In this document: piece by piece, positions 5,361 through 56,991 of the stretch
How positions within the stretch are numbered: position 1 is the stretch's first letter
How the letters are laid out: every line of letters starts with the position of its first letter
DNA from: Streptacidiphilus sp. ASG 303
GTDB lineage: Bacteria > Actinomycetota > Actinomycetes > Streptomycetales > Streptomycetaceae
Assembly: GCF_020991365.1 (NCBI RefSeq)
Contig: NZ_JAJLRA010000014.1
Coordinates: 62,001 to 126,000, forward strand
DNA: 64,000 nucleotides
Reading direction: 5' to 3'
Translations under genes and position numbers: made by a program
Notes under the pieces: generated by a model
Told to the model about the DNA's origin: nothing
Databases searched by the model: none
What the model saw: only the letters and a program-made list of their open reading frames with translations

Positions 5361-5906
5361 TCAGCCCAGGCGCCGGAGGGTGGCGAGCACGTCGTCGAGC
5401 CAGGCGACGGTCATCCGCTCGTACTCGATGCCGCCGCGCAGCACCACGTGCTGGAGGGCCTGCGCGGCGTCGAGGACGTCCGGGTCGGGGAAGTCGCGCC
5501 GCTCGCCGGCGAGGTAGCGGGCGAGGAGCGCGGCGTGGGCGGCCCGGTGGCGCTCGACCTCGGCGGCCAGCCCGGCGGTGCCGGCGGGGTCGAAGGCGGC
5601 ACCGCGGATCCGCACGGCCAGCTCGTGGCGGACGGTCTCCGGCTCGACGGGGGCGCGGAGCCACGCCGTGAGGGCGTCGCGGCCGGGGGCGGCGGCGGAG
5701 TACACCCGCTTGTCGGGGCGCCCCTCCTGGGCGACCTCCTCCGCGGTGATCCAGCCGTCCGCCTCCATGCGCTTGAGGACGCGGTAGATCTGCTGGTGGG
5801 TGGCGGTCCAGAAGCGCCCGATGGAGCGGTCGAAGCGGCTCGCGAGCTCGTAGCCGGAGCCGGGCTTCTCCAGCAGGGAGACGAGGATCGCGTGCTCGAG
5901 TGCCAT
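5361..5906 (-). CDS. PadR family transcriptional regulator
   Basis: The 181-residue protein begins MALEHAILVSLLEKPGSGYELASRFDRS, the classical PadR winged-helix opening. It continues with ATHQQIYRVLKRMEADGWI (recognition helix) and a wing with RPDKRVYS. The C-terminal half, about residues 90-175, is the helical dimerisation domain PadR_C. An upstream alternative start would include the operator palindrome, so the ATG at 5906 is preferred. The gene leads the acyl-CoA dehydrogenase - amidase series. A perfect palindrome 13 bases upstream of the start points to autorepression. Confidence 0.92.
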   Translation of the reverse strand: MALEHAILVSLLEKPGSGYELASRFDRSIGRFWTATHQQIYRVLKRMEADGWITAEEVAQEGRPDKRVYSAAAPGRDALTAWLRAPVEPETVRHELAVRIRGAAFDPAGTAGLAAEVERHRAAHAALLARYLAGERRDFPDPDVLDAAQALQHVVLRGGIEYERMTVAWLDDVLATLRRLG

Positions 5907-5918
5907 GGCGGTGATCCT

Positions 5919-5940
5919 GCTATGCAACTCGTTGCATAGC
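5919..5940. promoter_or_regulatory. perfect palindrome, probable PadR operator
   Basis: GCTATGCAAC - TC - GTTGCATAGC has 10-bp perfect arms with a 2-base centre. It stands immediately upstream of padR in otherwise GC-rich sequence. Its inner ATGCAA/TTGCAT resembles known PadR-family sites. Binding is inferred. Confidence 0.75.
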
Positions 5941-6000
5941 AACCGGCCGGTAACCTACTGAGACGCAGCTCACGGCGTGCCGCCCGGCGGGGCGGCGGCG

Positions 6001-22372: not shown

Positions 22373-23242
22373 GTGACGCAGGACACATCCCCCGTCGGGG
22401 GCGGCGAGGGGACCCGGGAGGGCGCGCCGGAGGGCGCACCGGAGCCGCCGCGCGAGTACCGCGTGGAGGAGCTGGCCGAGGCGGCCGGCATCACCGTGCG
22501 CACCCTGCGCTTCTACCGCGAGCGCCGCCTGCTCCCCCCGCCCCGCCGCAAGGGCCGCATCGCCTGGTACACCCAGGAGCACCTCGACCGGCTGCGCGTC
22601 GTCGCCGCCCTGCTGGAGCGCGGCCACACCCTCGGCGGCATCGCCGAGCTGCTCGCGGCCGGCGAGGAGGGCCGGCACGTCGCCGAGCTGATCGGCCTGG
22701 AGCGGGCCATCACCGCCCCCTGGACGGACGAGGTGCCGGTCCGGCTGACCTGGGAGGAGGTGGAGGCCGCGTTCCCCGGCGAGGCCGGCGCGGAGGCCGT
22801 CCGCGCCTCCGTGGGCCTCGGCTACGTCACCGCCGACCGCGACGGCGTCACCCACGTCAGCCGGCGGCTGCTGGACGCCACCGTCGCCCTCGTCCGGGAG
22901 GGCGTCCCGCTCGCCGGCGTGCTGGAGGTGGCCCGCCGCACCCAGGAGTACGCGGACGCGGTCGCCGACCTCTTCGTCCGGCTGGTGGGCGAGCGGCTGC
23001 TGGCCGGGCTGGAGGACGGCACCCCGAGCGCGGACGAGGCGCACCGGCTGACCGAGAGCGTGCTGCGGGTCCGCCCGCTGGGCCGCGCGGTCGCCGACGC
23101 CCAGTTCACCCTGGCCATGGACCGCCGGGTCCGGGAGGAGTACGAGAAGGTGCTCCGCCACCGCCTCGACCCCGGGACGGACGGCGGGCCCGGCGGCGGG
23201 ACGGACGGCGGGCGGGGCGCCGCCGGGGCGGGCCCGGACTAG
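22373..23242 (+). CDS. MerR family regulator
   Basis: The 289-residue protein has an N-terminal MerR winged helix after about 25 flexible residues: YRVEELAEAAGITVRTLRFYRERRLLPPPRRKGRIAWYTQEHLDRL. The remaining ~180 residues are a helical effector part, and it ends in a Gly/Asp-rich tail. The GTG at 22373 is chosen because upstream sequence is shadow; GGAAGG lies about 14 bases before it, rather far. It is divergent from the BVMO operon and probably controls it. No metal-binding Cys pair is visible. Confidence 0.87.
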   Translation: MTQDTSPVGGGEGTREGAPEGAPEPPREYRVEELAEAAGITVRTLRFYRERRLLPPPRRKGRIAWYTQEHLDRLRVVAALLERGHTLGGIAELLAAGEEGRHVAELIGLERAITAPWTDEVPVRLTWEEVEAAFPGEAGAEAVRASVGLGYVTADRDGVTHVSRRLLDATVALVREGVPLAGVLEVARRTQEYADAVADLFVRLVGERLLAGLEDGTPSADEAHRLTESVLRVRPLGRAVADAQFTLAMDRRVREEYEKVLRHRLDPGTDGGPGGGTDGGRGAAGAGPD

Positions 23243-56447: not shown

Positions 56448-56478
56448 TTGACCTCAAGGGAGCTTGAGGTCCTACGGT
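56448..56478 (+). promoter_or_regulatory. MerR/SoxR-type promoter with 19-bp spacer
   Basis: The -35 TTGACC (56448-56453) and -10 TACGGT (56473-56478) are separated by 19 bp, the extended spacing of MerR-activated promoters. The spacer holds the perfect dyad ACCTCAAG-GGAG-CTTGAGGT (56451-56470). This matches the known SoxR box CCTCAAG-N4-CTTGAGG. It drives the VOC gene at 56518. Confidence 0.85.
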
Positions 56479-56517
56479 CGGACCGTCCCGCGACGGCGCG
56501 AACCGAGGAGACCCGCC

Positions 56518-56991
56518 ATGAGCAGCCACGTCGTTCCCGACCGCTACCGCTACGCGGCGGTTCCCCACGTCATGGTCGACGACGCGGACGCCGCGCTCGG
56601 CTTCTACCGGGAGGCGTTCGGCGCCAGGGAGCTGTTCCGCGTCCCAGGTCCGGAGGGCGGCGTCATGCACGCGGAGTTCGCCGTCGGGGAGTCGGTCGTC
56701 ATGGTCGGCGACGCGGGGGGAGTCCTCACGACGCCGAGCGCCGGGGGCGGTCCGTCGGTGGGCCTGCATGTGTTCGTCGAGGACGTCGACGCCCTCTGCC
56801 GGCGGGCCGTGGGCGCAGGGGCGGAGCAGCTGCAGCCGCCGACGGACATGTTCCACGGCGACCGGACGGCGATCCTCCGCGACCCGTCCGGACACGTCTG
56901 GATCTTCCTGACCCACCAGGAGGACCCGTCGGCGGAGGAGGTCCTCCGGCGCGCCGCCGGACTCCCGTCCGGAACCGGGCACCACGCCTGA
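56518..56991 (+). CDS. VOC (glyoxalase/bleomycin-resistance fold) protein
   Basis: The 157-residue protein shows the VOC repeats: YAAVPHVMVDDADAALGFYREAFGARELFRVPGPEGG, then GLHVFVEDVDALCRRAVGAGAEQLQPPTDMFHGDRTAILRDPSGHVWIFLTHQED. His and Glu positions for a metal are present in part. The family covers dioxygenases, glyoxalases and antibiotic-binding proteins. AGGAG lies in front of the ATG. The SoxR-type box makes it likely that it responds to redox-active compounds. No soxR gene is in the window. Confidence 0.88.
   Translation: MSSHVVPDRYRYAAVPHVMVDDADAALGFYREAFGARELFRVPGPEGGVMHAEFAVGESVVMVGDAGGVLTTPSAGGGPSVGLHVFVEDVDALCRRAVGAGAEQLQPPTDMFHGDRTAILRDPSGHVWIFLTHQEDPSAEEVLRRAAGLPSGTGHHA

Follow-up and report, generated by a model that had tools for sequence, protein, structure and literature searches.

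Results

An exact match to the SoxR operator lies in the promoter of a VOC gene

In the window, by which we mean the whole 64,000-nucleotide stretch of DNA that was analyzed, a gene for a VOC protein is preceded by a promoter whose dyad is very probably the operator of an unlinked SoxR that activates the gene on oxidation. The assignment to the SoxR-type promoters is supported by the exact box, by the presence of SoxR in the genome, by the promoter shared with ecaA, and by conservation upstream of orthologous VOC genes. On the forward strand, the −35 element TTGACC (56448–56453) and the −10 element TACGGT (56473–56478) are separated by a 19-nt spacer, TCAAGGGAGCTTGAGGTCC (56454–56472), and the sequence read confirmed this arrangement together with the perfect dyad, both of which had been claimed in the preliminary description. 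The dyad, GACCTCAAG-GGAG-CTTGAGGTC (56450–56471), lies within the spacer and also overlaps its edge; its arms are 9 bp long, one base more per side than had been described, giving a perfect 9-4-9 repeat. Its core, CCTCAAG-N4-CTTGAGG (56452–56469), matches the SoxR operator exactly, and the spacing agrees with that of SoxR promoters, in which the operator is situated in a spacer of 19 to 20 bp. A ribosome-binding site, GAGGAG (56505–56510), stands upstream of the ATG at 56518, where the 157-aa VOC gene begins (56518–56991, forward strand). The product was correctly named as a VOC protein, since it matches PF00903, of the glyoxalase/bleomycin-resistance superfamily, with 69.4 bits.

That the inverted repeat arose by chance, in intergenic DNA rich in G+C, and that the promoter is constitutive or absent altogether is hardly conceivable. 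Perfect 9-4-9 dyads are not rare in the window, which has a G+C content of 78% and contains 11 of them, but the one discussed here is an exact known operator, set in register within a spacer of 19 bp and conserved with the VOC clade in Streptomycetaceae and Micromonosporaceae, so that a chance origin is strongly disfavored. When ACCTCAAG-N4-CTTGAGGT was searched with up to three mismatches, the VOC-promoter site was the only match within the window, against an average of 0.07 in shuffled sequences, and only one promoter of the form TTGACN-N19-TANNNT was found there, both strands counted. The exact sequence CCTCAAG-N4-CTTGAGG is expected about 0.007 times in a genome of this size (7 Mb, at the G+C content of the window) and was found twice, while a reversed control pattern had no match in the same genome; across 150 genomes of the family, 62 exact sites were found versus 5 for the control pattern.

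Another perfect dyad, GCTATGCAACTCGTTGCATAGC (5919–5940), coincides with the start of a minus-strand PadR-like gene (ORF 5361–5942) and looks like an operator for PadR autoregulation. An acyl-CoA-dehydrogenase-like ORF lies downstream of that gene; both names were read from the translations.

SoxR and its likely binding sites in the genome

The preliminary description had rightly placed the regulator gene outside the window and had proposed searching the genome for soxR and for further copies of the dyad, and both were found. A single SoxR is encoded in the genome, on a contig other than that of the VOC gene; it matches TIGR01950 with 192.8 bits (cut-off, 116.9) and carries the four-cysteine [2Fe-2S] motif CIGCGCLSLRTC (C-x2-C-x-C-x5-C). 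Exact boxes occur at only two places in the 7-Mb genome, namely the VOC promoter and the promoter of soxR itself, the latter box lying in the gap that separates soxR from a divergently oriented transketolase-like gene. With the third-best site, which has one mismatch and is situated upstream of an ABC transporter gene orthologous to SCO7008 (ecaA), these are the three best sites genome-wide. The ecaA-like promoter, TTGACCTCAAGCCCGGTTGAGGCCCTACGGTC (L003), agrees with the VOC promoter in its −35 element, in its spacer length, and in its −10 element, TACGGT. SCO7008 is a SoxR target in Streptomyces coelicolor, and a SoxR box is present at the transketolase gene SAV_1623 of Streptomyces avermitilis (PMC4146615).

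An unrelated MerR-family gene does occur in the window (about 22388–23242, forward strand; PF13411, 78.5 bits). It is divergent from a flavin-monooxygenase-like ORF, and no SoxR-type dyad was found at its promoter.

Conservation upstream of VOC relatives

Relatives of the VOC protein were drawn from public genomes and from the 150-genome family sample. A match of 14 or more of the 19 operator bases was found upstream of 53 of the 55 relatives that share at least 58% identity and upstream of none of the 17 more distant ones; a match of 13 of 19 turned up in 0.8% of random 230-nt stretches. TTGAC of the −35 element is invariant in the site-bearing orthologues, and the TA of the −10 element stands at the same 19-bp register in all 43 site-bearing loci checked. 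In the phylogenetic tree, the VOC gene of the window belongs to a group of 51 rows, all of which bear the box (support 98/92). The preliminary description had named two findings that would refute it, the lack of a SoxR homologue and the lack of the dyad before orthologous VOC genes, and both checks left it standing. Conservation of the promoter before those genes holds and spans both of the families named above, with half-sites that have drifted by one to four bases in most cases, commonly to CCTGAAC or CTTGAGC/T; exact sites are only three, the one reported here and those at L023 and L162. The site is missing upstream of two close relatives (L030 and L031), although SoxR is present in both genomes.

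SoxR scored above the cut-off in all 38 other VOC-bearing genomes searched and was also present in all 15 family-sample genomes with close VOC relatives, which partly overlap the 38; this co-occurrence gives weak support because SoxR is present in 128 of the 150 family genomes. SoxR is also encoded in both other genomes of the genus, in which neither a VOC relative at E ≤ 1e-20 nor an exact box was found, so that the genus offers no direct test; in one of them ecaA is accompanied by a box with one mismatch (L244).

The drift of the half-sites has to be weighed against another explanation, in which the VOC clade is under the control of a different unlinked activator of the MerR family that reads CTSAAS-type half-sites, while the exact SoxR match in this genome is a coincidental convergence. 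Most VOC orthologues indeed have half-sites resembling CCTGAAC or CTTGAGC rather than the exact SoxR box, and in two family genomes (L112 and L210, at about 1460–1540) an exact box lies between a methyltransferase gene and a gene for a short MerR protein that lacks the C-x2-C-x-C-x5-C motif of SoxR. This non-SoxR regulator seems to share the SoxR operator, and an exact box alone is therefore not proof of SoxR; no close relative of that MerR protein was found among the MerR loci of the present genome. We nevertheless regard such an activator as unlikely. This genome has 21 MerR-type genes, and a CTCAAG-type dyad was found near soxR alone; the other 20, considered as sources of an alternative regulator, were rejected on this ground. 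A motif pattern and tblastn with SoxR disclosed no linked MerR regulator within 4 kb of 50 VOC loci. In the VOC-bearing genomes, moreover, boxes of the same degenerate class mostly precede genes resembling published SoxR targets, as exemplified by TTGACCTGAACCTTGGTTGAGG before an ecaC-like gene.

The degeneracy is consistent with the reading as SoxR operators, in that the boxes of putative SoxR targets from those genomes differ at some of these positions as well, and a matrix built from the non-VOC putative regulon sites only scored the VOC operators mostly within the range of those sites. VOC boxes also tend to end in CTTSAA where the box of soxR itself does, in Kitasatospora-like genomes and Catellatospora (5 of 8 versus 2 of 38; Fisher p about 0.0008, a small post hoc comparison of hand-entered counts from related sequences).

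SoxR-type boxes across the family

TTGACC serves as the −35 element at 58 of the 62 exact boxes in the 150 family genomes. The genes downstream of the family boxes include soxR, a ferredoxin gene divergent from soxR, a transketolase gene, and relatives of ecaA, ecaC, ecaD, SCO2478, and SCO0320; each was named from its translated start by its likeness to published targets, without a formal orthology test.

SoxR-type promoters were also seen before two further small gene families (L222, L234, and L269; L227 and L260), which are candidates for additional SoxR targets. One of these families is MarR-like, with QPAGYWTW near the start, and the other begins with MRTLVLGRTPARV; no Pfam match was obtained for residues 1 to 60 of one member per family. 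In genome G072, a second, different VOC-like gene (L257) has a SoxR-type promoter, TTGACGTGAAGCGGACTTGAAGTCCTA, and on one contig of genome G047 (C4; L152 and L246) the VOC gene proper and the ecaA-like transporter gene, about 8.5 kb apart, both have SoxR-type promoters.

Structural relatives of the VOC protein

The AlphaFold2 model of the VOC protein (mean pLDDT, 85.5) gave 317 fold matches at E ≤ 0.001, and the protein combines the glyoxalase domain with the VOC fold that define the superfamily. Its nearest solved structure is TioX (3itw), by sequence (E = 4.9e-15) and as the first-ranked fold match, followed among the top matches by bleomycin N-acetyltransferase. TioX captures thiocoraline in the organism that produces it (PMC4052310). 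TnmS1/TnmS3, UcmS2, and the mitomycin-binding MRD are found within the top 50 fold matches. On the basis of sequence and model, the protein is grouped with antibiotic-binding or antibiotic-modifying VOC proteins, and it perhaps sequesters or processes redox-active antibiotics.

SoxR might bind as proposed and yet control an ordinary metal-dependent lyase or dioxygenase, acting for instance on methylglyoxal or a quinone, an alternative that concerns function only and that we consider somewhat improbable while taking it seriously. The His and Glu residues H17, H51, E53, and H84 show little or no variation within the close family, and the fold matches also include glyoxalases with bound metal (GloA2, E. 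coli glyoxalase I, and FosX), whereas TioX heads both the sequence and the fold matches and bleomycin N-acetyltransferase comes next, with the antibiotic binders named above in the top 50. Because those 50 hold antibiotic binders and also metal enzymes, glyoxalase I and FosX among them, sequestration by the VOC protein is no more than a reasonable guess.

Discussion

That SoxR binds at the VOC promoter, what induces the gene, and what the VOC protein does are inferred here, and the mode of activation is taken from established SoxR biology. A SoxR dimer whose [2Fe-2S] cluster is reduced would occupy the over-long 19-bp spacer, with the promoter off. Oxidation of the cluster by a redox-active compound would cause SoxR to distort the DNA and bring the −35 and −10 elements into register, and RNA polymerase could then use the promoter to transcribe the VOC gene. 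Going by the known biology of SoxR, redox-active antibiotics may be the inducers. The VOC protein may sequester or process compounds of the kind that induces it, and the ABC transporter EcaA, putatively under SoxR control as well, would act beside it.

The classical SoxR consensus, known from SoxR and the soxS promoter in Escherichia coli, is CCTCAAG-N4-CTTGAGG in a 19-bp spacer, and the VOC box matches both that consensus and that spacing. E. coli possesses a soxS cascade, however, whereas here no cascade is proposed and SoxR would act on the VOC gene directly. A further close parallel is the SoxR regulon of S. coelicolor, which comprises SCO7008 (ecaA), SCO1909 (ecaB), SCO1178 (ecaC), SCO4266 (ecaD), SCO2478, and SCO0320ext (PMC4146615). 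The regulator family, the operator, and the long-spacer promoter are the same as those described here, and the ecaA orthologue is the second putative target in the present genome. The two systems differ in that here the promoter of soxR carries a box while S. coelicolor soxR is not autoregulated, and in that none of the six published targets is a VOC gene (PMC4146615).

The VOC gene is absent from the published S. coelicolor regulon and from the accompanying survey (PMC4146615), and none of the papers searched mentions SoxR together with "vicinal oxygen chelate". That cross-species survey would have missed a VOC target, because it looked only for homologues of the S. coelicolor targets. From this absence, and as far as sequences can tell, the view that the VOC gene is a new target of a known regulator and a known promoter type is supported. 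The VOC protein has the same fold as TioX, BlmA, MRD, and TnmS1/S3; TioX serves a thiocoraline producer (PMC4052310), whereas the VOC gene described here stands alone behind a SoxR-type promoter, with drug binding by its product being putative.

A broader possibility, to which we would give slightly less than an even chance, is that actinomycete SoxR controls a conserved drug-sequestering VOC protein in addition to export and redox enzymes, so that the sensing of a redox-active antibiotic would directly induce its capture in Streptomycetaceae and some Micromonosporaceae. The small SoxR regulon of actinomycetes would thereby gain a conserved gene, and because the closest solved relative of its product captures an antibiotic, the gene may provide a testable link between the sensing of redox-active antibiotics and their binding.
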